Shown: one piece after another, positions 10,625-27,610 of the stretch | How positions within the stretch are numbered: the stretch's first letter is position 1 | How the letters are laid out: every line of letters begins with the position of its first letter | DNA from: Candidatus Obscuribacter sp. | GTDB taxonomy: Bacteria; Cyanobacteriota; Vampirovibrionia; Obscuribacterales; Obscuribacteraceae | Direction: 5' to 3' | Assembly (NCBI GenBank): GCA_021772155.1 | Contig: JADYXS010000037.1 | Span: 1-36,595, forward strand | Length of the DNA stretch: 36,595 bases | Notes under the pieces: generated by a model | What the model was told of the DNA's origin: nothing | The model's input: the letters and a program-made list of their open reading frames with translations, nothing else | Database searches by the model: none | Program-made: the position numbers and the translations under genes

Positions 10625-10663
10625 ATGAAGAATGTCCCCGTATGTGACAGAGGCTTTTCATGA
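10625..10663 (+). CDS. Twelve-codon leader ORF coupled to the Gly-rich gene
   Basis: ATG at 10625 is preceded by GAGGTGA, encodes MKNVPVCDRGFS and stops at TGA 10661-10663. That stop overlaps the ATG of the next gene in an ATGA junction. It could couple translation of the downstream secreted protein to an upstream initiation event. It may also be chance, because the downstream gene has its own AGAGG 7 bp before its ATG. Confidence 0.3.
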   Translation: MKNVPVCDRGFS

Positions 10664-11346
10664 ACTTGCACAGACTTCAATCAATTCTCTGGAGCATTAC
10701 GCTGGTGGCGGCTCTCTCGGCGCCCGCGCTCGCACAGGGTAACGGCACGCGACAAGGTTGGTCCGGTGGAAATGGCAACAACGGCGGACAAGGTTGGTCC
10801 GGTGGAAATGGCAACAACGGTGGACAAGGTTGGTCCGGTGGAAGTGGCAACAACGGTGGACAAGGTTGGTCCGGCGGAAATGGCAGCAACGGTGGACAAG
10901 GTTGGTCCGGTGGAAGTGGCAGCAACGGTGCCCGCGGTAAGCACGGACGGCGCGGCAACCGGGGTGGAGGCAATGGTCTGCAATCTGCAGACAACGGTTT
11001 CTCGAACGGAAAACGGTCCAAGGCACGGAAGCAAAGGCGCAAGGCCATGAAGAATGGATCATGCCAACCAGGTCTTGGCTCAGGACAGGGCTTTGGCGGT
11101 CTTGGTGGTAAAAATGGCTGGAAGAACGCACAAGGACAGGGTGGTAACGGATTCGGTGGAGTTGCGTTTAACGGTAGTGGCTCTAATGGACGTCGGGGCA
11201 AGCACAGACGAAACCAAGGAAACTGGCAAGGTGGCGGACAAGGTAACGGACAGTTTCCCGGCGGCGGAGCGACTAATGGTCAGTTTCCCGGCGGCGGAGC
11301 AACTAACGGTCAATTTCCCGGACAAGGCAACGGCGTAGGCAATTAA
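10660..11346 (+). CDS. Secreted glycine/asparagine-rich repeat protein
   Basis: The protein has 228 residues. A signal peptide (SILWSITLVAALSAPALAQG) is followed by five tandem 12-residue units of the type QGWSGGNGNNGG. Next come a Lys/Arg-rich stretch (about residues 85-130), more Gly-rich sequence, and three C-terminal GQFPGGGATN-type units. Composition implies a disordered or adhesive extracellular or envelope protein; basic patches could bind nucleic acid or anionic polymers. I recognise no family. The AGAGG at 10650 region serves as ribosome site. The next gene downstream, same strand, is the exported thioredoxin-like protein, starting 123 bp later with its own ribosome site. Confidence 0.75.
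   Translation: MNLHRLQSILWSITLVAALSAPALAQGNGTRQGWSGGNGNNGGQGWSGGNGNNGGQGWSGGSGNNGGQGWSGGNGSNGGQGWSGGSGSNGARGKHGRRGNRGGGNGLQSADNGFSNGKRSKARKQRRKAMKNGSCQPGLGSGQGFGGLGGKNGWKNAQGQGGNGFGGVAFNGSGSNGRRGKHRRNQGNWQGGGQGNGQFPGGGATNGQFPGGGATNGQFPGQGNGVGN
10753..10932 (+). repeat. 36-bp in-frame tandem repeat, five copies
   Basis: Units begin at 10753, 10789, 10825, 10861 and 10897 with CAAGGTTGGTCCGGTGGAAA-type sequence. Each encodes one 12-residue block, and copies differ by a few substitutions (AAT/AGT, AAC/AGC, GGC/GGT). The length (multiple of 3) keeps the frame, so copy number could vary between strains. Confidence 0.95.
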
Positions 11347-11469: not shown

Positions 11470-12159
11470 GTGTTTCGAAAATCAATACTACTTGCACTCA
11501 TGTCACTGCAATTGTGCGCAATCCCTTCAGCAGAAGCGGCACCGGCCGGTTTTGATGACGGCGTAAGGGCATATAACGGACGCCAGTACAGGCAAGCTCT
11601 TTCGTCATTTTCACAGGCAGCCTCTCAGGCGCCGGCTGATCCAATGGTTCGTTACTACATGGGGCTGTCCTATCAAGGACTAAACCAAATGACACTGGCA
11701 AAACAACAGTTCGAATATGTTGCTAGCTGCCAATCAAATCCTTCATTGGCCGGACAAGCTCGAACGGCATTGCAGAACCTCGCGCGTTACCAACCAACAC
11801 GGCAAGGCACAGCCAGCCCAGTGCGCATAGCAAGCGCCGCCGGTAGTGGTGGCGCTGCGGCATCGGGACAACGGGCTAGCGGACGACTAAAGGTTATAGA
11901 TTTTTCCACTGAATGGTGAGGGTATTGTAAACGGTTTGATCCGGTGTGGGAGCAGGTTGCATCCCAGATGAGAGGGGAAGTGGATTTCACGAAACTGGAT
12001 GGTGACGATCCAGGAAACAGTGCAATAAAGGCAAAATACAACGTCACTGGTTACCCCAGACTAGTTTTCACCGACAAGACTGGCACCGCGCTGCTTAATC
12101 ATCGAGGCGCACCATCGACGGCCGAGGATTTCAAAGCACTCATCAATAAATACAAATAA
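11470..12159 (+). CDS. Exported TPR-thioredoxin protein with in-frame TGA at the first active-site Cys: candidate selenoprotein
   Basis: The start is GTG 11470 with AGGAG and GGAG just upstream. A signal peptide (about residues 1-24) is followed by TPR-like helices (about 28-110), a low-complexity linker, and a thioredoxin domain (about 138-229). Codons before the break read VIDFSTEW; then TGA (11917-11919), then GYCKRFDPVW in the same frame. The frame continues with the Asp of KLDGDD and the cis-Pro loop VTGYP, ending at TAA 12159. The expected motif is WCGYC, so TGA stands exactly for the nucleophilic Cys. With selenocysteine inserted the product is 229 residues with Sec150 and Cys153. UxxC thioredoxin-fold selenoproteins are known in bacteria. 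A SECIS-like hairpin follows. Alternatives are a single-base nonsense mutation (TGC/TGT to TGA) or a sequence error. Selenocysteine machinery genes are not in this window. Confidence 0.65.
11947..11966 (+). promoter_or_regulatory. Putative bacterial SECIS hairpin
   Basis: The RNA UGGGAGCAGGUUGCAUCCCA folds as UGGGA/UCCCA (5 bp), a bulged A, GCA/UGC (3 bp) and the apical loop GGU. E. coli fdhF's SECIS has GCA-GGUC-UGC at its tip, also with a bulge in the stem, so the tip here is almost the same. Thirty-five bases separate the TGA from the loop. From memory, bacterial SECIS models accept about 16-37 and require a G in the first two loop positions. Spacing is longer than in fdhF, so SelB binding is inferred. 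Confidence 0.5.
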
Positions 12160-12235: not shown

Positions 12236-14263
12236 TCAGTCTTGATGATCTTTCAACGGGACTTTGTAGTTATTGAGAATGGTACGCGAATGATTTGAAT
12301 CACTCAGGCATTTACTGTCGAATGCAATGTACGTTGCAATGTCTTCCGATTCTTTCCTGCTAAGTGATCCGCTCTTCAATGCGGCCAAATAGAATTGGTT
12401 GGCTTCCTGCCATTTGTGTTTTTGGCGCAGCACGTTTCCTAATAGAACCTGCACCTCCGATTGTCCTGGCAGCTCAACAGAGTTCTCTTCCCCTATCGCA
12501 ACCGCCTTCCTAAAGCAAGACTCCGCTCGCTCGAAATTGCCAACATTCACATAATTCCTGCCGAGCATCGTTTGGAGCATTTTCTCCGACCACATGCCGG
12601 CCGACGGTCTTCCCTTCGCAAACTCTATACCGTCGTTGACTACGGAGAGCCAATCCGCTGACCCCGGTTCAAGCAAGTTGCCTGTTTTGCAGTAGGCGTC
12701 AACAGTTCGCTCCGATGGACGTATCGCTTTCAAAATCCGTAAGGCGCGATTGCCGGTGAGACGGCACATTGCGCTATCAGTGTTAAAGGCTCCACTTTCC
12801 TCGAATAAATCTCCAATGAGCTCCGGGCAGGCTTTATTGTTGCGTGCAGACTTGAATATCCTTATAGCGGCTTCAGCGTATGTTTGGCGCATTTTCGGAT
12901 TCTGGCATTTAACTGCCACAAAAAAACAAGCTTTTGCGATATTGGCATCGCGACAGTCTGCAGGCACCGCCTTTGATACCATCTCGCTGGTTGATTCGGC
13001 TCCGGCAATTGATTGTGGATCCGTTCGAGAACGAAGCACTAGCCATTGCTGCAAAGCCGTAAGAGCGGCGGCGGAAGCTTCATCTTTAGCGCCCTCTTGT
13101 TGAAGGGCCATGGCACGCATCGCGAACAATTTCACCGTATCTTCATTTATCAGGTGCGACTGGGTCGCGCGCCCACAACATTGATTAACTACTCCATTTC
13201 GATCCGTTTTAAAGAAAGCAGAGGAATAGAAGGCAGTATTGGCTCCGATTGCGCATGCGGTCTGGGCATCTGCAAACCCAAGAAAAAATGAAACAACCCG
13301 TCCGGGAAACAGCAAGATTCCGACAATAAATAGACCAACTATTACAAACAACGCGCGCGAATGCGTACTCAACGATACATGTGGGCGAATCGCCACCGCC
13401 TTGATTTTACCGCCACTCAGAAGGGATTCCAGGTCTAATTGAAATTCGCCCATCGATGGATATCGATTGCCGGACTGTTTTGCCACCGCTTTTGCAACTA
13501 CGTTCTGAATATCCGCAGGGCAGTCATTTTCCTCAATAGCCGATCGCACTATGGGTGGGGTCTTCTGCAGGTGCATCTGCATCACCGCTACAGTATCGAA
13601 GGCAAGGAATGGCGGCTCACCGGTCAGGCACTGAATCAAGACGCAACCGAGGGCGTAGACGTCAGATCTTATGTCCGCTGGATTCCCCAAGCACTGCTCC
13701 GGGCTCATCGAGTAAATACTGCCAATCAGGTCACCAGTCTGCGTCAACTTCTGGGAGGCGTCGGCGGATTCAATTGATTTGCCTAAACCGAAATCTACTA
13801 CCCTTACTCGATCAATGCCGTCTTCACCGCAGGAAACAAGGATATTGCGTGGCGTTAGGTCTCGATGAATGACGCCCTGAGAATGAGCGTGATCCATGGC
13901 CTTGGCCACTTCAATACAGATGCGGAGTGCTCGGCGCCAGGGTATCTTACCGCTGTGCAGCAATTGTGCAAGTGATTCGCCATCGAAATAGTCGACACAT
14001 GCGTACAACGAGCTCTGCCATACTCCGAACTCATAACATTGAAGGATATTCGGATGCCGCAAAAGGGAAATTAGCCGAGCTTCCCGAAGAAACCGCTTTT
14101 GCGCTTCTTCGTTGATTTCCTGAATGTCGGCATGCATAAACTTTAAAGCAACGGTGCGATCCAGGTGTTGGTCGATTGCCCGATAGACACTGGCATGAGC
14201 GCCTGAGCCCAATAGGCAGACAATGCGGTAGTGGTCGTCGACGATTGTTCCGGGCTGAAGCAT
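12236..14263 (-). CDS. Transmembrane Ser/Thr protein kinase with extracytoplasmic TPR region
   Basis: The protein has 675 residues from the ATG at 14263, chosen because GGAGG lies 4 bp upstream and the alternative 88-residue extension runs into the preceding gene. The cytoplasmic PknB-like kinase domain (about 12-282) shows LLGSGAHASVYRA as G-loop, VALKF with the ATP-binding Lys, HRDLTPRN as catalytic loop, DFGLG for metal binding and MSPEQ in the activation segment. A transmembrane helix (about 305-330, ALFVIVGLFIVGILLFP) is followed by a Cys-containing outer region with TPR-like helices (NVGNFERAESCFRKAVAIGE and beyond). The catalytic-loop Lys is Thr. The gene follows a TerD-domain gene by 100 bp on the same strand, probably as one operon. 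Confidence 0.88.
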   Translation of the reverse strand: MLQPGTIVDDHYRIVCLLGSGAHASVYRAIDQHLDRTVALKFMHADIQEINEEAQKRFLREARLISLLRHPNILQCYEFGVWQSSLYACVDYFDGESLAQLLHSGKIPWRRALRICIEVAKAMDHAHSQGVIHRDLTPRNILVSCGEDGIDRVRVVDFGLGKSIESADASQKLTQTGDLIGSIYSMSPEQCLGNPADIRSDVYALGCVLIQCLTGEPPFLAFDTVAVMQMHLQKTPPIVRSAIEENDCPADIQNVVAKAVAKQSGNRYPSMGEFQLDLESLLSGGKIKAVAIRPHVSLSTHSRALFVIVGLFIVGILLFPGRVVSFFLGFADAQTACAIGANTAFYSSAFFKTDRNGVVNQCCGRATQSHLINEDTVKLFAMRAMALQQEGAKDEASAAALTALQQWLVLRSRTDPQSIAGAESTSEMVSKAVPADCRDANIAKACFFVAVKCQNPKMRQTYAEAAIRIFKSARNNKACPELIGDLFEESGAFNTDSAMCRLTGNRALRILKAIRPSERTVDAYCKTGNLLEPGSADWLSVVNDGIEFAKGRPSAGMWSEKMLQTMLGRNYVNVGNFERAESCFRKAVAIGEENSVELPGQSEVQVLLGNVLRQKHKWQEANQFYLAALKSGSLSRKESEDIATYIAFDSKCLSDSNHSRTILNNYKVPLKDHQD

Positions 14264-14363
14264 GCACCCTCCGAGCATGATTTGCCCGGCCTGCGGTGCT
14301 CTTAAGCAGCCTACGTGAGGCAAAGCGTATTCATTAAGTACTGCGGTCGAAGAATCAGCCTCT

Positions 14364-16490
14364 CTAGTTCTGCATAAACTCGCTAGCGATGCGCTCGGGA
14401 TGAAACGGAGTTTCATTTTCTTCGGAAAACACGGTGACGGCATCGTTCGGATTCTGGACTTCTTGCCCGCGCGCTTGAACGTGCAACTGCAGCAGATCAT
14501 ATAGATTCGGTTTAGCGATATCGACAAGGGATTGAACAGTCAATTGGATACCCGTTAGATTTCCAGCCACATTGTTGAACCAGCCAGGGTTGTGGTTAAG
14601 CCCCATATCGGCCCAGATCACTTCGCGTTCGACCAAATCGAATATTGCCGGGATTGCGACCTTCGTGTTAGATGCGATGTCGAATTTATTACTTACAGTC
14701 CTGGGTTCATAGATCTCTCCAGAGTCAGCTTGTTTTCGCGACATCCAGCCAGCGAAACATTCAGGAAGATCACAATATGGTTGCCCGGTATAGCTGTTCA
14801 GCACCATTACGACGTAGCGCGCCCCAAGTTGCTTGCTCTTACTTATTGATATATCGATGAATTCACTTGCACCGTTTGGTGCGTCTACGATGTCACCACT
14901 ATGGTGCCCACCGAAATTTTTCAAGTTGTAATAGGAAAGTACATCGAGATATCTGAACTTGGTATCGAAAACGGCCGCGGAAAGGTCGATGTCTGCTCGC
15001 CCAAGTCCATTCTTCCACCAGATAAAGAATCGCAGAGTATCGGTAGTTGTTAGCAAGGGCAAACGACTACCTCGTGTAACCGTGCGTAGCGCTTTCGATG
15101 CAGACCGCTGGGAAAAAGGCACCATGTAGTTTTTCAATACTGGATCAACATAGCAGGTGCCAAGATCAGGCAATTTCGAAAACCTACTGATCAACGTCGA
15201 TTCGCAGATTTCAAACACAGTTCGGCATAACTCCGGCGGCAATTTCGGCAACGTGTTCAGAATCCCCTGAGCTTTGGCAACTTCGCCCTTTGGAAAAAAT
15301 ACTCGTAGCGCACGCGGTTCAGCCCGAGTCTTAAAGTGATGCATGACTTGCAGTAAAACAGGGGTGGAGACTTTCATAGCCACAGTAGAGAATGCTGCCG
15401 CCACCTCATTTTGAGACCGGGCCTCTAACCGCAGGATGTGATCGAGTCGTCGAGCGAAGTCACCGGGACGTGTTGCCAACATCGTCAACAGGGTGTCCAG
15501 GTTCTTGTCCTCAAGAGCCTTTTCCAGAGTGCTGTTAAAGCGCGGAACCGCTCTATTGTTTCTCAATACATCAAAGGCCTCGTCACAGCGCGGAAATCTC
15601 TTCTTATATTCTGATGGATGCAGACGCTCTCCGAGCCGAATCCAGCGCGCTTTCCATCTGAGCATATCCTCAGTCGGATTACTTTGCGATTCCAAAACTT
15701 GGAGCAAAGCACGTCGTTCTCGGCGAGAATAACTTCGGAACTTCACAGGCTCCGCCAAAGACACATCACCATCGCTCATAGCCACAGCCACCCGCAACAC
15801 ATCAGTGGCCGTAGTGCAAAATCGCGAAAGATGTCCGCTGCCATCCACGGTGCTTGAAATTAGCGCTGCCACCAGGAAAGCCTTGTTTTCCCTGTTCGGC
15901 ACTTCGTCCGGCATAAGCCGCAGAACATCATTTCCATACAGCTCAACGAACAATCGAAGATCGTGCTTATCTTCTGCCGAAAGGGACGTGTTCGCCAAGG
16001 CAAGCTGACGAAACAGGCACTCAAATTCCTCCTGAGAGCCTCGCTCAATTATCTTGATTTCGGTTTCGTCCGCCAGGGGTGATCGTTCTTTCTTTTCAGT
16101 CTTCGGGCTCCAGCGCCCGTCAGTCAAATAGTGCATAAAGGCGTTCAAATACAGACGCGCCTTACTCATGTCCATAACTTGCTGCGGGAAGTTCGGATAC
16201 ATCGGCTCAAAACGCTTATGGGCGCCCTTGCCTTTACCCAAAGACTCCATAAGTCCATTGTGGAAATCTGTGAGTTTTTCCAGCGTCATGCGCCCGCAGT
16301 CCTCAGTAAGTTCGGCAGATAGGCCGTAACCGAGCGACTCAAGGTTCATCAACACAGATGCCACATATTGAGGGGGAAGCGATTCGCCTTCCGCGGTCTC
16401 AATCAGGACTTTCTTTGCTCGCCTGGCGAAGATTTCATTGGCAATCGTCATTTTCGCTGATGATTTCGTCAGCACGGTTAATCGCCTCAC
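14364..16490 (-). CDS. Large protein with C-terminal TerD domain (stress/tellurite-type)
   Basis: The protein has 708 residues from GTG 16490; ATG 16451 is an alternative, and neither has a strong ribosome site. The last 230 residues match the TerD fold: LRFFIWWKNGLGRADIDLSA, then HHSGDIVDAPNGASEFIDIS with the acidic Ca-binding-type residues, YVVMVLNSYTG, and a long C-terminal hydrophobic pattern. The N-terminal 450 residues are helical, with RERRALLQVLESQSN, WIRLGERLHPSEYKKRFP and RPGDFARRLDHILRLEAR. These recall the large TerD-containing proteins of actinomycetes and myxobacteria (the MXAN_6230/SCO0854 type), from memory. TerD proteins act in stress and membrane-linked complexes. Association with the downstream kinase suggests a signalling role. 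No terC, terB or other ter genes are nearby. Confidence 0.75.
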   Translation of the reverse strand: MRRLTVLTKSSAKMTIANEIFARRAKKVLIETAEGESLPPQYVASVLMNLESLGYGLSAELTEDCGRMTLEKLTDFHNGLMESLGKGKGAHKRFEPMYPNFPQQVMDMSKARLYLNAFMHYLTDGRWSPKTEKKERSPLADETEIKIIERGSQEEFECLFRQLALANTSLSAEDKHDLRLFVELYGNDVLRLMPDEVPNRENKAFLVAALISSTVDGSGHLSRFCTTATDVLRVAVAMSDGDVSLAEPVKFRSYSRRERRALLQVLESQSNPTEDMLRWKARWIRLGERLHPSEYKKRFPRCDEAFDVLRNNRAVPRFNSTLEKALEDKNLDTLLTMLATRPGDFARRLDHILRLEARSQNEVAAAFSTVAMKVSTPVLLQVMHHFKTRAEPRALRVFFPKGEVAKAQGILNTLPKLPPELCRTVFEICESTLISRFSKLPDLGTCYVDPVLKNYMVPFSQRSASKALRTVTRGSRLPLLTTTDTLRFFIWWKNGLGRADIDLSAAVFDTKFRYLDVLSYYNLKNFGGHHSGDIVDAPNGASEFIDISISKSKQLGARYVVMVLNSYTGQPYCDLPECFAGWMSRKQADSGEIYEPRTVSNKFDIASNTKVAIPAIFDLVEREVIWADMGLNHNPGWFNNVAGNLTGIQLTVQSLVDIAKPNLYDLLQLHVQARGQEVQNPNDAVTVFSEENETPFHPERIASEFMQN

Positions 16491-16837: not shown

Positions 16838-18271
16838 ATGCCGAGTAAAGGTACGCCATTTGTTAGGCTGCAATCAGCATTCCTTTTAGGTCTGACTCTG
16901 GCAATCGGAGTGGTCCAGCTAACGCCTTTCCAAGTCCAAGCTGCTTGTTGTTACTTTGCAGCCAAAGATAAAGACGTCAACCAACCGGGTCAAAAAGCTT
17001 TCATTACTTGGGACGCACAGAAAAAGCTAGAGGCGTTCACTGTTCAACCAAAGTTTGAAGGTAACGCAGGAGATTTCGGAATGGTTATCCCGACACCTTC
17101 CAGACCAAAGCTGGACGAGATGCCGCGCGATTTCTTCAAAGACCTGGCGATGTACACAATTCTGATGCCCTTACCAGAACCAATCGACACCTCGTTAACT
17201 GAGCGCAAATACGACATGCGCGAAAGAAGCATTCGATCGAGCACTTTGTCACGAGAGAGTGACAAGAAAAATCATGTTCGGATACTGGAATCTGGAGTCG
17301 TCGGCTCACTGGACTATAAAATCATTTTGGCCGAAGATGCTAGCGGTCTGTTTCAATGGCTCAAAAGCAACCGGTATTCCTATGGTGGCGATGAAGCGAC
17401 CTTGCGATTTTACATCAAGAAAAAATCGTATTTTACAGTGATGAAAATTGACCCAAAGCAAATGAAAAAGGCCTCAAATGGTTCTTATACGGGCGAGATA
17501 ACGCCAACGCGTTTTACGTTCTCATCGCCCCAGTGCATGTATCCACTCAAGATCACGCAGCTATCCGTCAAAGATCGAACAGACGCTTTATTTTATGTGC
17601 AGGCGCCGGATCAAATGGACTTGCCGGGTGACTGGTCATGGATGCACTCGTACCGCCCAATGTATCTCACATACATGCTGGGATGCAGCGCCAACGAGCA
17701 GCAACAAACGGAACTGAATTCGCGCAGTGAGTGGCTTGACAAGAAACGAGTGAAAGAACCCAATTACGAAACAACAAAGTTGGAGTGGGCAAAGTCCCTC
17801 GGCGTGGCTGAAATGAAAGTACTTGAAGATCCGCAGAAGAACTATGGACTGATGGGCTCCGGAGACTTACCAACAGGGGCTAAAGTAATGGCGCTGAGCG
17901 ATTTTCTTGAGGAAATTAAGACGAATTACCTTAAGGACAATAAGCAACTGCTTCCCTACGCCAAGGAACAACTGATCAGCATGGAAGACAAATACCAACC
18001 TTCCAGAGGATTGATCGTCAAATACGACCCGAAGACCGTCGGACAAGGCTATCTTTACAGCAACTACGCCTGGTACCCAGCACGTGAAGTGCCAGTCGAA
18101 GACATCAAAGGATTGACCCGCCTCAAGGGACACCTGCACCAGGGACAGTGGCTAACCAAATTTCGCAAGATCATCCGTAAAGACGAAATGACGCACGATC
18201 TGGTTCTGGCAGAAGTGCCCAAACAGAAGCAGCAAACATACATCAGGGTAATGCCGACATCACCACCTTAG
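16838..18271 (+). CDS. DUF2330-family exported protein, array copy 1
   Basis: The protein has 477 residues, with AAGGAGAAGG before the ATG. The signal peptide (about 1-35) ends VQA before ACCYFAAKDK and is unrelated to those of copies 2-5, while the rest is nearly the same. The core, PGQKAFITWDAQKKLEAFTV then GDFGMVIPTPSRPKLDEMP, fits the DUF2330 family of secreted or membrane-linked proteins with no established function. Cysteines at the mature N-terminus (CC), in the SSPQCMYPL region and in YMLGCSAN are shared by all five copies. The segment at about 17190-17270 is hypervariable among copies. A large inverted repeat follows the stop. Confidence 0.85.
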   Translation: MPSKGTPFVRLQSAFLLGLTLAIGVVQLTPFQVQAACCYFAAKDKDVNQPGQKAFITWDAQKKLEAFTVQPKFEGNAGDFGMVIPTPSRPKLDEMPRDFFKDLAMYTILMPLPEPIDTSLTERKYDMRERSIRSSTLSRESDKKNHVRILESGVVGSLDYKIILAEDASGLFQWLKSNRYSYGGDEATLRFYIKKKSYFTVMKIDPKQMKKASNGSYTGEITPTRFTFSSPQCMYPLKITQLSVKDRTDALFYVQAPDQMDLPGDWSWMHSYRPMYLTYMLGCSANEQQQTELNSRSEWLDKKRVKEPNYETTKLEWAKSLGVAEMKVLEDPQKNYGLMGSGDLPTGAKVMALSDFLEEIKTNYLKDNKQLLPYAKEQLISMEDKYQPSRGLIVKYDPKTVGQGYLYSNYAWYPAREVPVEDIKGLTRLKGHLHQGQWLTKFRKIIRKDEMTHDLVLAEVPKQKQQTYIRVMPTSPP

Positions 18272-18274
18272 TTT

Positions 18275-18385
18275 CCTGGGAGCGCCGGCGTCCCGCCGGC
18301 TTGGTGTAGGGTCGCGACGCGTCGCGCCCGCGGGCGGCTCACGAGCCGCCTCTACAAGAAAAACAGCCGGCGGGACGCCGGCGCT
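18275..18385. repeat. Large GC-rich inverted repeat, copy A
   Basis: Outer arms AGCGCCGGCGTCCCGCCGGC and GCCGGCGGGACGCCGGCGCT are perfect 20-bp complements. The insert between them holds TGTAGGG/CTCTACA ends, the palindrome CGCGACGCGTCGCG and a hairpin GGCGGCTC/GAGCCGCC. This nested structure recurs after array copy 2 (B) and copy 4 (D), and in part elsewhere. It resembles REP/BIME-type or MITE-like elements; no transposase is present. Confidence 0.9.
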
Positions 18386-18427
18386 TGATCGAGAACAGAA
18401 GCCATTCGTTGCTTTGAAGGAGAACTA

Positions 18428-19849
18428 ATGAAGTCCACCAAGATTACTTCGGTGTCTGGTATGGCTCTAATTATGATGCTAGCCGGATATGGACGTCAGG
18501 CGATGCAATCACCTGTTGAAGCTGCCTGCTGCTATTTCTCTGCGAAAGACAACGACGTCAACCAGCCGGGTCAAAAAGCTTTCATCACTTGGGACCCGCA
18601 GAGGAAGTTGGAGGCATTCACCGTTCAACCGAAGTTCGAAGGTAACGCTGGAGACTTCGGAATGGTCATTCCGACACCTTCCAGGCCAAAGCTGGACGAA
18701 ATGCCGCGCGATTTCTTTAAAGACCTTGCAATGTATACCATCCTGATGCCGTTGCCGGAACCAATCGATTCCTCTTTAACTGAACGCAGTTACCGCGCAG
18801 AAGCCAAGGGCTCCATGAGCGACGGCGCGGCACTTCCCATGGGGAAAAGCAATCATGTCCGCGTCGTTGAATCCGGAGTGGTCGGCTCACTAGACTACAA
18901 GATCATATTGGCTGACGATGCCAGCGGCCTATTTGAATGGCTCAAAAGCAACAAATACTCCTATGGTGGCGACGAAACAACGCTGCAGTTTTACATCAAG
19001 AAAAAATCGTACTTCACGGTCATGAAAATTGACCCGAAGCAAATGAAAACGGCTTCCAATGGTTCTTATACGGGCGAGATAACGCCCACTCGATTTACCT
19101 TTTCATCGTCCCTGTGTTTTTATCCGCTAAAAATCACACAGCTTTCCGTCAAAGATAAAACGGATGCACTGTTCTATGTGCAAGCACCAAATCAAATGGA
19201 CCTACCAGGCGACTGGTCGTGGATGCACTCGTTCCGCCCCATGTATCTCACTTATATGCTAGGGTGCAGCGCCAATCCGCAGCAGCAAACTGAGCTGAAT
19301 TCGCGCACTGAGTGGCTCAACACGAAACGAGCGAAAGAATCCAATTACGAAACAACCAAACTGGAGTGGGCAAAATCACTCGGTGCTGCTGAAATGAAAG
19401 TGCTTGAAGATCCACAGAAAAACTATGGACTGATGGGCTCAGGAGACTTGCCACCCGGCGCCAAAGTTATGGCGTTGAGCGATTTTCTCCAGGAAATTAA
19501 AACGACCTACCTCAAAGCTAACAAGCAGATTCAACCCTCTGCCAAGCAAATACTAATCACCATGGAAGACAAATACCAACCTTCCAGAGGATTGATTGTC
19601 AAAGACCCGAAAACCGCGGGACAAGGCTATATTTCCACCAACTACGCTTGGTACCCAGCACGTGAAGTGCCACTCGACGACATCAAGGGACTAACTCGCC
19701 TCAAAGGACACTTGCACCAGGGACAGTGGCTAACCAAGTTCCGTAAGATCCTTCGCAAGGACGAAATGACGCACGATCTAATTCTGGCGGAAGTGCCCAA
19801 ACAGCAGCAGCAAACATACATCAGAATCATGCCGACATCACCACCGTAA
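18428..19849 (+). CDS. DUF2330-family exported protein, array copy 2
   Basis: The protein has 473 residues, with AAGGAG before the ATG. Its signal peptide (MKSTKITSVSGMALIMMLAG) belongs to the type shared with copies 3-5. The hydrophobic core ends LAGYGRQ rather than LAGC, so it is not a clear lipoprotein; cleavage near VEA-ACCYF is more likely. The DUF2330 core is intact. The hypervariable stretch (about 18769-18850) reads TERSYRAEAKGSMSDGAA, unlike its neighbours. One residue of the KYDPKT motif is missing relative to copies 1, 3 and 4 (KDPKT). Function is unknown. Confidence 0.85.
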   Translation: MKSTKITSVSGMALIMMLAGYGRQAMQSPVEAACCYFSAKDNDVNQPGQKAFITWDPQRKLEAFTVQPKFEGNAGDFGMVIPTPSRPKLDEMPRDFFKDLAMYTILMPLPEPIDSSLTERSYRAEAKGSMSDGAALPMGKSNHVRVVESGVVGSLDYKIILADDASGLFEWLKSNKYSYGGDETTLQFYIKKKSYFTVMKIDPKQMKTASNGSYTGEITPTRFTFSSSLCFYPLKITQLSVKDKTDALFYVQAPNQMDLPGDWSWMHSFRPMYLTYMLGCSANPQQQTELNSRTEWLNTKRAKESNYETTKLEWAKSLGAAEMKVLEDPQKNYGLMGSGDLPPGAKVMALSDFLQEIKTTYLKANKQIQPSAKQILITMEDKYQPSRGLIVKDPKTAGQGYISTNYAWYPAREVPLDDIKGLTRLKGHLHQGQWLTKFRKILRKDEMTHDLILAEVPKQQQQTYIRIMPTSPP

Positions 19850-19852
19850 ATG

Positions 19853-19953
19853 CCTGGGAGCGCCGGCGTCCCGCCGGCTTGGTGTAGGGGCGCGTCGTGA
19901 GCCGCCCCTACAAGAAAAACAGCCGGCGGGACACCCAACAGAGAATCTCCCAG
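19853..19953. repeat. Large GC-rich inverted repeat, copy B
   Basis: It has the same left arm as A and an inner hairpin TGTAGGGGCG/CGCCCCTACA around CGTCGTGAGC. The right arm is GCCGGCGGGAC followed by divergent sequence, ending again at CTCCCAG. The inner insert is about 20 bp shorter than in A and D. Confidence 0.85.
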
Positions 19954-19994
19954 AAACAAAACCAGCGCCAACTCACCGATCAGAAGGAGAAATA

Positions 19995-21413
19995 ATGAAA
20001 TCAATCAAGCTTGCATCATTCTCTGGTATGGCTCTACTTATGGTGCTTGCCGGTTACGGACGTCAGGCGATGCATTCGCCTGTAAAAGCTGCCTGCTGCT
20101 ACTTTTCCGCTAAAGACAAAGACGTCAACCAGCCCGGTCAAAAAGCATTCATCACCTGGGACCCGCAGAGGAAGTTGGAGGCCTTCACGGTTCAACCGAA
20201 GTTCGAAGGTAATGCTGGAGACTTCGGGATGGTAATTCCGACACCTTCCAGACCGAAGCTGGACGAAATGCCGCGCGATTTCTTCAAAGACTTGGCAATG
20301 TACACAATTCTCATGCCCCTGCCTGAGCCAATCGATACCTCAATGGTTGTTTCGAGGTACAAAGAAGGGAGAGGCGCGCGGATAAGCGGCGAAACGCCGA
20401 TGGGAAAGGGAAATCATGTCCGCGTGCTTGAATCCGGAGTAGTCGGCTCACTGGACTACAAAATCATCTTGGCTGACGATGCCAGTGGTTTGTATGAATG
20501 GCTAAAAAACAACCGCTACTCCTATGGTGGCGATGAAGCAACGCTGCAGTTTTACATCAAGAAAAAATCGTATTTCACGGTCATGAAGATTGATCCGAAG
20601 CAAATGAAAAAGGCTTCAAATGGTTCCTATACGGGCGAGATAACACCCACTCGATTTACGTTTTCATCGGCTCAGTGCTTTTATCCACTCAAGATCACAC
20701 AGCTGTCCGTCAAAGACAAAACAGACGCATTGTTTTACGTACAGGCACCAGGGCAAATGGACCTGCCGGGCGACTGGTCATGGATGCACTCATACCGCCC
20801 GATGTACCTCACTTATATGCTCGGGTGCAGCGCCAATCCGCAACAGCAGGGTGAACTCACTTCGCGCAGCCAGTGGCTCAACACGAAACGAGCCAGAGAA
20901 TCGAATTACGAAACAACCAAACTGGAGTGGGCCAAATCACTCGTTGCAGCTGACATGAAAATACTTGAAGATCCACAAAAGAACTATGGACAGATGGGTT
21001 TAGGAGACTTGCCACCCGGTGCCAAGATTATTGCCTTGAACGATTTTCTTCAGGCAGTTAAGACCGACTATCTCAAAGACATGAAACAACTGGAACCATA
21101 CGCCAGGCAAGAGCTAATCAGAATGGAAGACAAATACCAACCTTCTAAAGGAATGATCGTTAAATACGATCCGAAGACCGTTGGCAAGGGCTATCTTTAC
21201 ACCAACTACGCCTGGTACCCGGCGCGTGAAGTGCCACTCGACGACATCAAGGGACTGACTCGCCTCAAGGGACACTTGCACCAGGGTCAGTGGCTAACCA
21301 AGTTCCGTAAGATCCTCCGCAAAGACGAAATGACGCACGATCTAGTTCTGGCGGAAGTGCCCAAACAGCAGCAGCAGACATACATCAGAATCATGCCGAC
21401 ATCACCACCGTAA
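19995..21413 (+). CDS. DUF2330-family exported protein, array copy 3
   Basis: The protein has 472 residues, with AAGGAGA before the ATG. Signal peptide and core are as in copy 2. The hypervariable stretch (about 20336-20412) reads SMVVSRYKEGRGARISGET. The final residues MPTSPP are the same in all copies, and the block from KGLTRLKGHLHQGQW to the end is almost unchanged in copies 1-4, as expected of recent duplication or continuing gene conversion. It is followed by the shortest form of the intergenic palindrome. Confidence 0.85.
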   Translation: MKSIKLASFSGMALLMVLAGYGRQAMHSPVKAACCYFSAKDKDVNQPGQKAFITWDPQRKLEAFTVQPKFEGNAGDFGMVIPTPSRPKLDEMPRDFFKDLAMYTILMPLPEPIDTSMVVSRYKEGRGARISGETPMGKGNHVRVLESGVVGSLDYKIILADDASGLYEWLKNNRYSYGGDEATLQFYIKKKSYFTVMKIDPKQMKKASNGSYTGEITPTRFTFSSAQCFYPLKITQLSVKDKTDALFYVQAPGQMDLPGDWSWMHSYRPMYLTYMLGCSANPQQQGELTSRSQWLNTKRARESNYETTKLEWAKSLVAADMKILEDPQKNYGQMGLGDLPPGAKIIALNDFLQAVKTDYLKDMKQLEPYARQELIRMEDKYQPSKGMIVKYDPKTVGKGYLYTNYAWYPAREVPLDDIKGLTRLKGHLHQGQWLTKFRKILRKDEMTHDLVLAEVPKQQQQTYIRIMPTSPP

Positions 21414-21416
21414 ATG

Positions 21417-21440
21417 CCTGGGAGCGCCGGCGCTCCCAGG
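21417..21440. repeat. Minimal palindromic form of the repeat, copy C
   Basis: This is a perfect 24-bp palindrome (CCTGGGAGCGCC and its complement) made of only the outer ends of the element. It looks like an internal deletion product of A/D-type copies, or the seed unit. Confidence 0.85.
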
Positions 21441-21481
21441 ATCGAAAGCCGACGCCACTTCACTGATCATAGGTGCAACTA

Positions 21482-22906
21482 ATGAAATCAATAAAGCTTG
21501 CTTCAGTATCAGGTCTGGCACTACTTGTGGTGCTTGCCGGATTCGGACGTCAGACGATGCAATCGCCTGTACAAGCTGCCTGCTGCTACTTTTCCGCTAA
21601 AGACAAGGACGTCAACCAGCCAGGTCAAAAGGCTTTCATTACTTGGGACCCGCAGAGGAAGTTGGAAGCGTTCACCGTTCAACCGAAATTTGAAGGCAAT
21701 GCCGGAGACTTCGGAATGGTAATTCCGACACCTTCCAGACCGAAGCTGGATGAAATGCCGCGCGATTTCTTCAAAGACCTGGCAATGTACACCATTTTGA
21801 TGCCCTTGCCGGAAGCGATTGATTCCTCGCTAATCGAGCACAAATACGAAGAAGAATGTTCCGACGCGATGGGCGGCGCAGCACCGTCGTCCTTTAAGAA
21901 AAATGGTCACGTCCGCGTACTTGAATCCGGAGTGGTTGGCTCATTGGACTACAAAATCATATTGGCTGACGATGCTAGCGGCCTATTTCAATGGCTCAAA
22001 AGCAACAAATACTCTTATGGTGGCGATGAAACAACGCTGCAGTTTTACATCAAAAAAAAATCGTACTTCACAGTTATGAAAATTGACCCGAAGCAAATGA
22101 AAAAGGCTGCCAATGGTTCTTATACGGGCGAGATAACGCCGACGCGATTTACGTTTTCATCAGCCCAGTGCTTTTATCCTCTAAAAATCACACAGCTTTC
22201 CGTCAAGGACAAAACAGATGCACTGTTCTATGTGCAAGCACCAAATCAAATGGACCTACCGGGTGACTGGTCATGGATGCACTCATACCGCCCCATGTAT
22301 CTCACTTACATGCTCGGTTGCAGCGCCGATCAACAGCAACAAAGTGAATTAACTTCGCGCACCCATTGGCTCAACACGAAAAGAGCGAAAGAACCCAACT
22401 ACGAAACAACAAAACTAGAGTGGGCAAAGTCTCTCGGTGCTGCTGAAATGAAAGTACTGGAAGATCCACAGAAAAACTACGCGCTGATGGCCGCAGGAGA
22501 CTTGCCACCCGGAGCCAAGGTTATGGACCTGAACAATTTTCTTGTGGAAATTAAGGCAGACTATCTCAAGGCTAATAAACAGCTTCAACCCTATGCAAAG
22601 CAACAGCTCGTAAGCATGGAAGACAAATACCAACCTTCCAAAGGAATGATCGTCAAATACGACCCAAAAACAGTTGGGCGTGGTTACCTTTACACTAACT
22701 ATGGCTGGTACCCGGCGCGTGAAGTACCGCTCGATGACGTAAAGGGACTGACTCGCCTGAAAGGGCACTTGCACCAGGGACAGTGGTTAACCAAATTCCG
22801 CAAGATCCTCCGCAAAGACGAAATGACGCACGATTTGATTCTGGCCGATGTGCCCAAGCAGCAGCAGCAAACTTACATCAGGATCATGCCGACATCACCA
22901 CCGTAG
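21482..22906 (+). CDS. DUF2330-family exported protein, array copy 4
   Basis: The protein has 474 residues from ATG 21482, preceded by AGGTG; a GTG 9 bp upstream is less likely because the other copies start at the MKS codons. The hypervariable stretch (about 21826-21905) reads SLIEHKYEEECSDAMGGA and contributes an extra Cys. The 45 bp upstream of the start (21434-21478) are identical to those of copy 5. Confidence 0.85.
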   Translation: MKSIKLASVSGLALLVVLAGFGRQTMQSPVQAACCYFSAKDKDVNQPGQKAFITWDPQRKLEAFTVQPKFEGNAGDFGMVIPTPSRPKLDEMPRDFFKDLAMYTILMPLPEAIDSSLIEHKYEEECSDAMGGAAPSSFKKNGHVRVLESGVVGSLDYKIILADDASGLFQWLKSNKYSYGGDETTLQFYIKKKSYFTVMKIDPKQMKKAANGSYTGEITPTRFTFSSAQCFYPLKITQLSVKDKTDALFYVQAPNQMDLPGDWSWMHSYRPMYLTYMLGCSADQQQQSELTSRTHWLNTKRAKEPNYETTKLEWAKSLGAAEMKVLEDPQKNYALMAAGDLPPGAKVMDLNNFLVEIKADYLKANKQLQPYAKQQLVSMEDKYQPSKGMIVKYDPKTVGRGYLYTNYGWYPAREVPLDDVKGLTRLKGHLHQGQWLTKFRKILRKDEMTHDLILADVPKQQQQTYIRIMPTSPP

Positions 22907-22908
22907 CT

Positions 22909-23024
22909 TCCTGGGAGCGCCGGCGTCCCGCCGGCTCGCTGTAAGGGCGCAACGCGCCCGCGGGCGGCTCACGAGCAGCCCCTACAAGAAAAACAGCCGG
23001 CGGGGACGCCGGCGCTCTCCCAGG
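22909..23024. repeat. Large GC-rich inverted repeat, copy D
   Basis: It has full left and right ends (CCTGGGAGCGCCGGCGTCCC on the left, GGCGCTCTCCCAGG on the right), one inserted G in the right arm (GGCGGGGACG) and an inner block like that of A (CGCGCCCGCGGGCGGCTCAC). The sequence next to its right end is the duplicated leader shared with array copy 4. Confidence 0.9.
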
Positions 23025-23065
23025 ATCGAAAGCCGACGCCACTTCACTGATCATAGGTGCAAATA

Positions 23066-24499
23066 ATGAAATCAATAAAGCTTGCTTCAGTGTCAGGTCT
23101 GGCACTACTTATGGTGCTCGCCGGCTACGGACGACAGGCAATGCAATCACCTGTAGACGCGGCATGCTGCTACTTCGCAGCTAAGGAAAAAGACATCAAC
23201 CAGCCGGGACAAAAAGCTTTCATTACGTGGAATCCGGCGCAGAAAAGCGAGGCATTCACAGTTCAGCCTAAGTTCGAGGGGAACGCCTCCGATTTCGGAA
23301 TGGTCATACCTACGCCGTCTCGCCCCAAACTAGATGAGATGCCTCGCGATTTCTTCAAAGACTTGGCGATCTACACGATTCTAATGCCATTGCCTGAGCC
23401 CATTTACACCGCGACCGATATGCCGATGATGCCATGCTCAGCAGCCCCGGGAGGCATGGGTGGCATGGTCCTACAAGAAGGAGCAGTACAACGAAAGTCA
23501 GTTCGCGTTCTGGAAGCCGGCGTGGTCGGATCCCTCGACTACAAAATTATCGTTGCTGATGATGCATCAGGACTGTTCGAATGGCTCAAGCAGAATCGCT
23601 ACAGCTATTCAGGCGATGAATCAACCCTTCAGTTTTATATCAAAAAGAAATGGTTTTTCACCGTCATGAAAATCGATCCAAAGCAAATGAAAAAGGCTAG
23701 CGGCGGATCATACAGCGGCGAAGTTACACCGACGCGGTTTTCGTTTTCATCAAACGAATGTATCTATCCTCTGAAAATCACTCAGCTGTCTGTTAAAGAC
23801 AAGACGGATGCATTGTTCTATGTGCAAGCGCCCCAGCAGATGGATCTTGCAGGAGACTGGTCGTGGATGCCTTCCTATCGATCAATGTACCTCACTTACA
23901 TGCTTGGTTGCTCCGCTGACCAACAGCAACAGAAAGAGCTGCAAGCGCGCACACAATGGCTTGAATCCAAGCATCAGAAAGACAATCAGTTCGAAACAAC
24001 GAAATTGGAATGGGCAAAGAAGTTAACTCCTAATGAACTCAGCGTCCTTGAAGATCCGCTAAAAAAATATGGACAAATGGGGACAGGCGGTTTGCCACCA
24101 GGAGCTAAAGTCATATCACTGGCCGACTTCCTTCAACAAATGAAGGCCGATGCCCTCAAGAGCAACAAACAAAAAATGCCGGAGTATGCAAAGCAGGACC
24201 TGATCCGCATGGAGGATCAATACCAACCAACAAAAGGAATGATCGTCAAAAACGATCCGAAGTCAGTAGGCAAAAGCTACATCTCCACCCGATTCACCTG
24301 GTATCCCGCTCGCGAAGCCCCACAAGACGATGTGAAGGGACTCACGCGCCTCAAAGGACACTTGCGCGATGGTCAGTGGCTGACAAAATTCCGCAAGACG
24401 ATCCGTAAAGATGAGATGAAGCAAGATATGGTTCTTGCCGTAACTCCTGCGGGACAAGAGCAAACGTATGTTCGCATCATGCCGACATCACCGCCTTAA
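23066..24499 (+). CDS. DUF2330-family exported protein, array copy 5 (most divergent)
   Basis: The protein has 477 residues from ATG 23066 (AGGTG upstream). The signal peptide is nearly identical to copy 4, but the mature part differs at many positions (e.g. NPAQKSEAF for DPQRKLEAF, KWFFTV for KSYFTV). The hypervariable stretch (about 23403-23490) is Met/Gly-rich (PMMPCSAAPGGMGGMVLQ). The conserved Cys residues and the MPTSPP end are kept. No large inverted repeat follows; the sulfatase gene begins 170 bp later, so this is the end of the array. Confidence 0.85.
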   Translation: MKSIKLASVSGLALLMVLAGYGRQAMQSPVDAACCYFAAKEKDINQPGQKAFITWNPAQKSEAFTVQPKFEGNASDFGMVIPTPSRPKLDEMPRDFFKDLAIYTILMPLPEPIYTATDMPMMPCSAAPGGMGGMVLQEGAVQRKSVRVLEAGVVGSLDYKIIVADDASGLFEWLKQNRYSYSGDESTLQFYIKKKWFFTVMKIDPKQMKKASGGSYSGEVTPTRFSFSSNECIYPLKITQLSVKDKTDALFYVQAPQQMDLAGDWSWMPSYRSMYLTYMLGCSADQQQQKELQARTQWLESKHQKDNQFETTKLEWAKKLTPNELSVLEDPLKKYGQMGTGGLPPGAKVISLADFLQQMKADALKSNKQKMPEYAKQDLIRMEDQYQPTKGMIVKNDPKSVGKSYISTRFTWYPAREAPQDDVKGLTRLKGHLRDGQWLTKFRKTIRKDEMKQDMVLAVTPAGQEQTYVRIMPTSPP

Positions 24500-24670
24500 G
24501 CCTCGGCCGGATCCTGTCGCAAATGGGTTGGATTCATCAGGCGCAGACTGACTTCCAAGGCGCTGACGCAGATGTCTTTATTCTGATATCGTGTGCATAC
24601 TCTTTTATGCCACGTACCTAACCGTTTTGAAGAGCGTGATAAACCCATCTATTGTCAGGAGCGAAGTAGC

Positions 24671-26284
24671 GTGAATCACTACGCAATCAAGGTGTGCGCA
24701 GTATTTTTGGCAGCAGCCGCATCGCTGGTGCCGACGGCAGGAATATGCGCAGACGCAAAGCGGCCCAACATCATCTTCATTATGGGCGACGATATCGGCT
24801 GGTTTAACATCGGTGCCTATCACCAAGGAATGATGTCCGGCAGGACGCCAAATTTGGATAGGCTGGCGTCAGAAGGAATGCGTTTTACTGATTACTATGC
24901 AGAAGCAAGTTGCACAGCTGGACGCGCAAACTTCATTACCGGTGAACTGCCAATTCGCACGGGGATGACGACCGTTGGCCAAGCCGGCTCGTCAACGGGG
25001 CTTCCGGAACAAGCCGTGACAATTGCCACGGCCCTGAAATCCAATGGCTATGCAACCGGGCAGTTTGGCAAAAATCACCTTGGCGACTTGAACAAATTCC
25101 TACCAACAGTTCATGGCTTCGACGAATTCTTTGGCTATCTGTATCACTTAGATGCCATGGAAGATCCGGCTCACGCAAATTATCCGCAAAATCTGAAAGA
25201 CACTGTTGGCCCGCGGAACATGTTGCACACCTGGGCTACCGATGCTGATGATGCCACAGTGCAACCACGCTGGGGCAAAGTCGGCAAACAAAAAATCGAA
25301 GACGCCGGAACGCTTTATCCCAAACGCATGGAAACAGTGGATGACGAGATTCTCGACAACACCATTAAGTTCATGGACAAAGCACGAGCCCAAGGCAAGC
25401 CTTTTTTCACCTGGCTTAACCCCACACGCATGCACATCGTTACGCATCTTTCCGACAAGTATCAGGACATGCGCAACGCGGAAAACAGCTGGAGTGAAGA
25501 AGAAGCCGGAATGGCGCAGCTCGATGACATCGTTGGTTCAGTAATGAGCTACCTCAAGAAAAATGGCATCGATGACAACACAATTGTTGTATTCAGCACC
25601 GATAATGGCACCGAAAACTTCACTTGGCCAGATGGCGGGCAAACGCCGTTTGCTGGCGCCAAAGGTACTGCGCTTGAAGGCGGTTTCCGAGTTCCATGCA
25701 TGGTGCGCTGGCCAGGAAAAGTACCGGCAGGCAAAGTGGAAAACAGCATCGTGTCCGGGCTTGACTGGTTTCCGACATTTGTAGCTGCAGCTGGAAATCC
25801 AAACATCGTAGACGAGCTGAAGGCTGGCACACAACTTAGCGGTACCAATTACAGGGTCCATTTAGATGGCTACAACCAATTGGATCTAATCACCGGAAAG
25901 GGTCCTTCTAAGCGTCACGAAATCTTGTATTTCACCGAAAGCACACTCGGAGCCGCACGTATTGATGATTACAAATACCGCTTCACCGATCAGCCAAACG
26001 GCTGGCTTGGTGCCACCCAGAAAGTGGATTGGCCTATTCTGACGAATCTTCGCCTCGATCCTTTTGAGCGAACTGGAATGTCCAACGGTCGAACAGGTTC
26101 GCTTGCCTACTACAACTGGTTTGTTTACCAATTCTGGCGCTTCGTTTTCGTGCAAAAGGAAATAGCCAAAACTGCCCAAACCTTCCTGGATTTTCCACCG
26201 ATGCAAAAAGGTGCAAGTTTCAACATGGAAGCTATCAAGCAGAAACTTGAAGAGCAGATGAATGCGCAGGGCAAAATCAATTAA
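24671..26284 (+). CDS. Exported arylsulfatase (formylglycine-dependent)
   Basis: The protein has 537 residues from GTG 24671, with AGGAG about 9 bp upstream. The frame is open to 24593, but the GTG gives a clean signal peptide (VNHYAIKVCAVFLAAAASLV, cleaved near ICADA). Sulfatase motifs are NIIFIMGDDIGW (metal-binding Asp pair), SCTAGRANF (C-x-A-x-R, whose Cys is oxidised to formylglycine), GQFGKNHLGD (active-site Lys/His) and FSTDNGTE (metal-binding Asp/Asn). It should hydrolyse sulfate esters in the periplasm or outside; the substrate cannot be told from sequence. The formylglycine-generating enzyme lies next downstream. Confidence 0.93.
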   Translation: MNHYAIKVCAVFLAAAASLVPTAGICADAKRPNIIFIMGDDIGWFNIGAYHQGMMSGRTPNLDRLASEGMRFTDYYAEASCTAGRANFITGELPIRTGMTTVGQAGSSTGLPEQAVTIATALKSNGYATGQFGKNHLGDLNKFLPTVHGFDEFFGYLYHLDAMEDPAHANYPQNLKDTVGPRNMLHTWATDADDATVQPRWGKVGKQKIEDAGTLYPKRMETVDDEILDNTIKFMDKARAQGKPFFTWLNPTRMHIVTHLSDKYQDMRNAENSWSEEEAGMAQLDDIVGSVMSYLKKNGIDDNTIVVFSTDNGTENFTWPDGGQTPFAGAKGTALEGGFRVPCMVRWPGKVPAGKVENSIVSGLDWFPTFVAAAGNPNIVDELKAGTQLSGTNYRVHLDGYNQLDLITGKGPSKRHEILYFTESTLGAARIDDYKYRFTDQPNGWLGATQKVDWPILTNLRLDPFERTGMSNGRTGSLAYYNWFVYQFWRFVFVQKEIAKTAQTFLDFPPMQKGASFNMEAIKQKLEEQMNAQGKIN

Positions 26285-26325
26285 AAAGGGCAACAATTGA
26301 TGTGTTGTCATCGATGGCAGATAAT

Positions 26326-26359
26326 CGGCAGAACCGCGGCAATTGCCGCGGTTCTGCCG
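26326..26359. repeat. Perfect 34-bp palindrome between sulfatase and FGE genes
   Basis: The half-site CGGCAGAACCGCGGC (15 bp) is mirrored around AATT with no mismatch. No T-tract follows, so it is not a typical intrinsic terminator; it could slow transcription, stabilise the sulfatase mRNA end, or bind a dimeric regulator. It differs in sequence from the A-F repeats. Confidence 0.85.
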
Positions 26360-26506
26360 TGCGCGAATATGGGTACGGAGCCAATTCCCAAATCGGCACA
26401 TTTCCCGATGCCTTGCTGCAGGAAGCGAATAAGCGCGTCTGGGTAGTGATCAGCATGAAAGATAATTGGAAACGCATCTTTTCTTGGTAAGGTTATTGGC
26501 TTGATA

Positions 26507-27610
26507 ATGAACGAATGCGTGCACAAAACAATCTTCTCGTGCCTCAGCCTACTCTTAATGAACGCAGCGGTGTTCCCGCCGGCTCTAGCCGCCGGTGCTT
26601 CACATTTCGCACCGACGATTTCTAACAAGACGAAAGCACCGGCGGCCGCGCCCAAAGGCATGGTCTGGATCCCCGGCGGCGAATTTTCCATGGGCAGCGA
26701 AGATCCAACTACTGGCACAGTTTGCGGTGGGCACGAGCCCATGCGCGATGCGCGGCCAGTTCACCGCACCTATGTCGACGGCTTCTGGATCGACAAAACT
26801 GAGGTTACCAACGAGCAGTTCGAAAAATTCGTGAAAGCGACCGGGTATCGAACCATTGCAGAAATCGCACCGACAAAAGAAGAATTTCCCACCGCGCCCA
26901 AAGAGAATCTTGTCGCCGGTTCTACGGTTTTCACGCCGACGGCAAGGCCTGTGGCACTGCAAAATATGTATCAGTGGTGGCGCTACCAACACGGCGCAAA
27001 CTGGCGGCATCCAGAGGGCCCCAAAAGCAGCCTGAACGGCCGTGAAAAGTATCCGGTCGTACAGGTCGCGTACCCCGATGCGATGGCTTATGCCAAGTGG
27101 GCCGGCAAGCGCCTGCCGACGGAGGCCGAATGGGAATTCGCTGCGCGAGGTGGGCGGGCCGGAGAGATTTACTCATGGGGAAACGATCTCAAACCTGTCG
27201 GCAAGTGGATGGCAAACATCTACGAGGGGAAATTTCCGGTCAAAGATACCGGCGCTGACGGCTTCGTCGGCGTTGCACCAGTGGCTCAGTTTCCGGCCAA
27301 TAGGTATGGTCTGTATGACACTGCAGGCAATGTTTGGGAATGGTGCAGCGACTGGTATCGCGCAGACTATTACGCACAACTAGCCACACAGAACGAGGGC
27401 GTGGTGCGAAACCCACAAGGGCCTGACTCAGCATGGGATCCTGTTGAACCCAAAGAAAAAAAGCGCATCCACCGAGGCGGCTCGTTCCTCTGCACAGACC
27501 AATACTGCACGCGTTACATGGTCGGCACTCGGGGCAAAGGTGAAGTCACCACAGCCGGAAATCACCTCGGATTTCGCTGCGTGCAGCCGGTCAAACTTAC
27601 AAAAAGATAA
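26507..27610 (+). CDS. Exported formylglycine-generating enzyme (SUMF1/FGE family)
   Basis: The protein has 367 residues from ATG 26507; a TTG two codons earlier is possible, and the ribosome site is weak in both cases. A signal peptide (about TIFSCLSLLLMNAAVFPPAL, then AAG) is followed by the FGE-sulfatase domain. GMVWIPGGEFSMGS, TEVTNEQFEKFV, RLPTEAEWEFAARGG and NVWEWCSDWY are family signatures. GGSFLCTDQYCTRYM contains the two active-site cysteines (C-x4-C) of true oxygen- and copper-dependent FGEs, which many SUMF1-like proteins lack. It would convert the Cys of SCTAGR in the adjacent sulfatase to formylglycine. Because both have signal peptides, activation would take place after export. 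Confidence 0.9.
   Translation: MNECVHKTIFSCLSLLLMNAAVFPPALAAGASHFAPTISNKTKAPAAAPKGMVWIPGGEFSMGSEDPTTGTVCGGHEPMRDARPVHRTYVDGFWIDKTEVTNEQFEKFVKATGYRTIAEIAPTKEEFPTAPKENLVAGSTVFTPTARPVALQNMYQWWRYQHGANWRHPEGPKSSLNGREKYPVVQVAYPDAMAYAKWAGKRLPTEAEWEFAARGGRAGEIYSWGNDLKPVGKWMANIYEGKFPVKDTGADGFVGVAPVAQFPANRYGLYDTAGNVWEWCSDWYRADYYAQLATQNEGVVRNPQGPDSAWDPVEPKEKKRIHRGGSFLCTDQYCTRYMVGTRGKGEVTTAGNHLGFRCVQPVKLTKR

Follow-up and report, generated by a model that had tools for sequence, protein, structure and literature searches.

A TGA codon very probably read as selenocysteine in a predicted exported TPR-thioredoxin from a non-photosynthetic class of Cyanobacteriota

The window, by which we mean the whole stretch of 36,595 nucleotides that was analysed, carries on its plus strand a gene that runs from a GTG at 11470 to a TAA ending at 12159 and contains a single in-frame TGA. 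Just upstream, at 10660-11346, lies the gene of a secreted protein that is built of Gly/Asn-rich repeats (GGNGNNGGQGWS) and matches no Pfam family, and a Ser/Thr protein kinase with TPR is encoded on the minus strand at 12236-14527, convergent with the TGA-containing gene. The gene and the elements within it are:

11470..12159, plus strand: whole candidate selenoprotein gene from GTG to TAA, coding for 229 residues with putative Sec150; one frame with a single in-frame TGA, PF00085 match at E 1.9e-15
11470..11541, plus strand: predicted Sec-type signal peptide (MFRKSILLALMSLQLCAIPSAEAA), read from the sequence by eye; helix 4-14 in the structural model
11551..11784, plus strand: residues 28-105, a region of TPR-like helices, modelled as five with pLDDT 96-98; TPR Pfam matches in relatives
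11785..11883, plus strand: low-complexity Ser/Gly/Ala linker; pLDDT mostly low in the model, under 50 for residues 112-135
11884..12156, plus strand: thioredoxin domain with putative UGYC active site and cis-Pro (P196); PF00085 match 139-225, thioredoxin fold match at rmsd 1.3-3.5 A
11917..11919, plus strand: TGA codon very probably read as selenocysteine (Sec150); 25 genes share this TGA, and the other homologues have Cys bar one Ser
11943..11948, plus strand: apical-loop motif GGTGTG, position-homologous to the CGTGTTT loop of other TGA genes; 23 nt after the TGA, with a weak stem in the window
11944..11969, plus strand: strong hairpin GGGAGCA-GGU-UGCAUCCC, candidate bSECIS; fold of -10.6 kcal/mol (z -2.67), with 3 of 200 shuffles doing as well, the loop lying 35 nt beyond the TGA

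The initial annotation had placed this TGA where the thioredoxin CxxC has its first Cys, with the frame continuing in phase via VTGYP to the TAA, and this proved exact in the sequence: the residues around the codon read DFSTEW-TGA-GYCKRFDPVW. The absence of a second disruption downstream was likewise confirmed, TGA 11917-11919 being the only stop in the 229-codon frame. With the TGA read as Cys, the PF00085 Thioredoxin model matched residues 139-225 with 57.1 bits (cut-off 23.5), and UxxC and cis-Pro are both present, with positions 150, 153 and P196 invariant across the alignment. The protein also matches PF13098 Thioredoxin_2 (35 bits, cut-off 27), and none of the curated NCBIfam selenoprotein models was exceeded, the best being TsoB (NF045694) with 24 bits against a cut-off of 805. 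In the AlphaFold model (mean pLDDT 87) five N-terminal TPR-like helices (pLDDT about 96) are joined by a linker, disordered at 112-135, to a thioredoxin fold in which the Sec position sits directly before the active-site helix; superposition of this half on thioredoxins of solved structure gave an rmsd of 1.3-3.5 A. The proposed TPR region stood in part: the five model helices and TPR matches in relatives agree with it (TPR_19 exceeds its cut-off in the relative L074, the matches of other relatives lying below cut-off), while the window protein itself gave no TPR Pfam match at E<=0.01.

Homologues were searched for in 289 genomes of the same class, the GTDB family of the window genome being sampled by 50 genomes. 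Close homologues of the TPR-thioredoxin architecture were found in this one family, and many of them were flagged with exactly one internal TGA. With both strands read and two genes added via the covariance model, 25 distinct genes from 24 of the 50 family genomes proved to have TGA as the homologous codon, and all 25 keep the second Cys. The same codon is TGC or TGT in 36 of the remaining homologues and Ser in one. Breaks by TAA or TAG are rare in the family, and the in-frame stops of matched homologues are nearly all TGA, at one codon. The alignment of homologues thus revealed TGA or Cys (one Ser) at this position and no random breaks.

Such a codon could arise if an ordinary Cys thioredoxin gene had recently suffered a nonsense mutation or had been misread in sequencing, TGC and TGT being one base away from TGA, and TGC is indeed found both in the nearest paralogue of the same genome, L020 (47% identity), and in L039. 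However, the identical TGA recurs in 24 other genes from 23 further genomes, the near relatives L040 and L041 among them, the window frame has no second disruption, and the nucleotide conservation behind the codon, described below, is tied to TGA; we therefore regard mutation or error as very unlikely, and a plain nonsense mutation was rejected because the TGA is conserved among relatives. It is extremely unlikely that the TGA is a true stop that closes a 149-residue exported TPR protein and leaves the thioredoxin half untranslated or separately started. A complete domain, the TPR part with its linker, does precede the codon, but dN/dS downstream of the TGA was 0.04-0.25 in comparable TGA-gene pairs of relatives (e.g. 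L075/L070 and L082/L071, the window gene not being among the pairs), and this purifying selection argues that the region behind the stop is translated and selected. Moreover, the thioredoxin beta strand 140-146 precedes the TGA, so that the domain needs both sides, and the Cys homologues are continuous proteins.

The window genome (G000) is a draft assembly of 7.0 Mb in 730 contigs, and because it is 88% complete and 7% contaminated, the contigs with the selenocysteine machinery are not provably from the same cell. In this assembly selA (537 bits), selB (306 bits, C-terminal SelB winged-helix domain present) and selC all scored above cut-off. The tRNA-Sec (69.5 bits, anticodon TCA) is colinear with the tRNA-Sec of relatives, and its gap-free alignment with them favours a native origin. 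The search for the sel genes, advised by the initial annotation, was therefore successful for selA, selB and tRNA-Sec; selD was not found in the 88% complete assembly (top score 46.6 bits, cut-off 125) and is present in 42 of 50 relatives. Across the same 50 genomes tRNA-Sec is above cut-off in 39, namely in 22 of the 24 TGA genomes and 17 of the 26 others, and the two TGA genomes without it are incomplete assemblies, both with selD. Among the five family genomes that have neither tRNA-Sec nor selD, none has a TGA gene (Fisher p 0.027, uncorrected for relatedness). Since TGA occupies this active-site position in 25 related genes, all from bacteria with selenocysteine machinery, the TGA of the window gene is very probably read as selenocysteine. 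A general reassignment or suppression of TGA (e.g. as Trp, or by a suppressor tRNA), which would keep the codon open even though the window itself has no strongly conserved hairpin, is a negligible prospect, given that the in-frame stops of homologues concentrate on TGA at a single codon, that several relatives (e.g. L074, L083) end the same gene with an ordinary TGA stop, that the codon occupies a catalytic Cys site whose role Trp could not fill, and that tRNA-Sec, SelA and SelB are present in the genome.

Subsequent to the TGA, at a distance of 15-40 nt, most TGA genes share the block TTTGCGCCCGTGTTTGACGCA, the synonymous sites of which vary in Cys genes; codons +8 to +11 (CCC GTG TTT GAC) are frozen at their synonymous sites in TGA genes and variable in Cys genes. 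The block folds as a hairpin with the loop CGUGUUU, 23 nt from the TGA. In an alignment of 23 genes, 83.8% of the hairpin pair cells are formed, against at most 50.6% in slid controls, and four of the pairs show two-sided (compensatory) changes, e.g. from U-A to C-G and from G-C to C-G. Covariation was 0.267 versus 0.128, a score reached in none of 500 shuffles. At the loop position GTGT occurs in 25 of 25 TGA genes versus 1 of 36 Cys genes, and a covariance model built without the window clade gave the other TGA genes 61-73 bits and the Cys genes at most 39. Judged by its compensatory changes and its GUGU loop, the block is a bacterial SECIS, and the check for such an element after the TGA thus had a positive outcome. 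Several of the relatives' hairpins miss the published bSECIS energy limit. Fixed-position pairing compared with synonymous shuffles averaged 5.9 of 7 in TGA genes, with 4.8 expected (a mild excess for individual genes, with p about 0.1, and the window gene at expectation), and a generic hairpin energy scan, in which the loop constraint is unenforced and which thus counts neither way, yielded a median of about -7.2 for both TGA and Cys genes. Selenoproteins of other kinds were not found via the covariance model R1, the strong matches of which all come from the TPR-thioredoxin family.

The window gene and its relatives L040 and L041 form a clade in which GTGT is kept at the loop position with a stem that differs from that of the main clade. 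The main-clade covariance model scored L041 at 34 bits, L040 at 25 and the window gene at 7.3, its stem not being recognised. The strong hairpin of the window (GGU loop, spacing 35, -10.6 kcal/mol) lies within the published bSECIS limits (PMC13188914) and was not seen in the nearest relatives L040 and L041. Either of the two window hairpins, with the GGUGUG loop or with the GGU loop, may serve SelB.

The selenoprotein candidacy put forward at the outset is thus upheld by the recurrence of the TGA across 25 genes, by selA, selB and tRNA-Sec in the genome and by a SECIS-type element after the codon; the checks that were run from the initial list all favoured it, and none of the refuting observations named there was encountered. 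We are highly confident that the gene encodes an exported TPR-thioredoxin with selenocysteine as the nucleophilic residue (UGYC), the UGA being decoded by SelB with the aid of a downstream RNA hairpin. SelA and SelD would make Sec-tRNA(UCA), SelB would carry it to the UGA, and the hairpin just inside the coding sequence would guide the decoding; our confidence in this route of insertion, via SelB and a SECIS, is high. Outside the cytoplasm the mature protein would serve as a thiol-disulfide oxidoreductase, its selenol attacking substrate disulfides and the resolving Cys153 closing the cycle (U150/C153), with the TPR part choosing the partner. Export, the thiol-disulfide exchange and the choice of partner by the TPR part are predicted from the domains, and the reaction would run in the reducing, not the oxidising, direction.

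The bacterial Sec-thioredoxin of PF00085, a UxxC protein listed as experimentally verified (PMC13188914 Table 1), belongs to the same family and likewise has Sec for the first nucleophilic Cys. It is listed as a plain thioredoxin, whereas the window protein has a predicted signal peptide and an N-terminal TPR-like domain, comes from a Cyanobacteriota lineage and appears to use its own SECIS types. The UxxC thiol:disulfide interchange protein (PF13098) and the DsbD-fusion-like TsoB (NF045694) are, as the window protein would be, thioredoxin-fold thiol-disulfide selenoproteins, but the window protein carries a TPR region instead of a rhodanese or DsbD membrane domain. A combination of a Trx domain with TPR helices is also known from the CnoX/YbbN chaperedoxins (PMC6282202). 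The window protein falls outside that group, its order being TPR then Trx with a predicted signal peptide in front. CnoX has the Trx domain first and the TPR after it, is cytoplasmic and is not known to contain Sec. The suggestion that the architecture had not been described agrees with its absence from the 2026 catalogue of 119 families/subfamilies, in which there is no TPR-thioredoxin and no Melainabacteria (PMC13188914); Sec-thioredoxins as such are well known. The chemistry itself is already found in a known class of selenoproteins; as far as the literature shows, the exported TPR fusion, the lineage and the SECIS types would be new.

Cyanobacteria have been counted among the few lineages apparently lacking selenocysteine (PMC9312934, a 2022 review), and a proteome of Candidatus Melainabacteria has been noted in passing to include one Sec protein (PMC9529120); our search found no literature that pairs Obscuribacter with a selenoprotein. 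The window genome belongs to a non-photosynthetic class of the phylum: psbA is present in 48 of 117 phylum genomes sampled, none of these in its class. Among 386 phylum genomes, in which the family of the window genome is hardly sampled, selA was above cut-off in the window genome and in seven genomes of three families outside the class. A search for the TGA form in seven Sec-machinery genomes from other families of the phylum gave thioredoxin matches only. In a phylum reviewed as apparently without Sec, one family with large genomes commonly has both tRNA-Sec and selD. The selenoprotein catalogue would gain an architecture and a SECIS set with compensatory changes, in the shape of an exported redox selenoprotein that is sometimes multi-copy and that ordinary gene callers would end at the TGA. 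Furthermore, Cys-Sec switching becomes open to study in close relatives of one protein family.

A tree was computed after masking of the Sec column; on it 7 changes of the TGA/Cys label are required, and well-supported branches force at least 3 of them. The window gene falls into a supported clade with the TGA genes L040 and L041 and the Cys genes L039 and L020, outside the main TGA clade; compared with L040, the window gene is 53% identical before the TGA and 42% after it. The locus L131 (1480-1550) of genome G089, which has no tRNA-Sec over cut-off, carries TGT for TGA followed by a partial SECIS block of 38.8 bits, and by inspection it is the sole Cys gene with GTGT. L131 is a candidate for a Sec-to-Cys reversion. 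We tentatively suggest, at slightly less than even chance, that this non-photosynthetic family has undergone several Cys/Sec switches, that the SECIS of the window clade arose or was rebuilt independently of that in the main TGA clade, the loop keeping its position while the stem differs, and that the decayed SECIS behind the TGT of G089 marks a Sec that reverted to Cys.

The relative L074 has two TGA genes in tandem, and in L071 one TGA gene is followed by two Cys copies; these tandem copies indicate that the family expands locally. The TGA genes L081 and L083, from a divergent subgroup (genus g11), have Gly for Trp before the active site (HLDGUVPC). Among the genes neighbouring the TGA loci, inspection by eye revealed neither a reductase nor a DsbD partner in common. 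A kinase-like frame (IGEGGMGLVYKVEH or similar) lies directly downstream of the TGA gene in L069, L070, L075, L076 and L079. Further along the window, 16838-24499 holds five tandem paralogues, each with a signal-peptide-like start and an AACCYF motif, the first of which matches DUF2330 (PF10092). At 24593-27610 a sulfatase gene is followed by a gene for an FGE-like (formylglycine-generating) enzyme, and the CTAGR stretch of the sulfatase is of the kind that FGE modifies.
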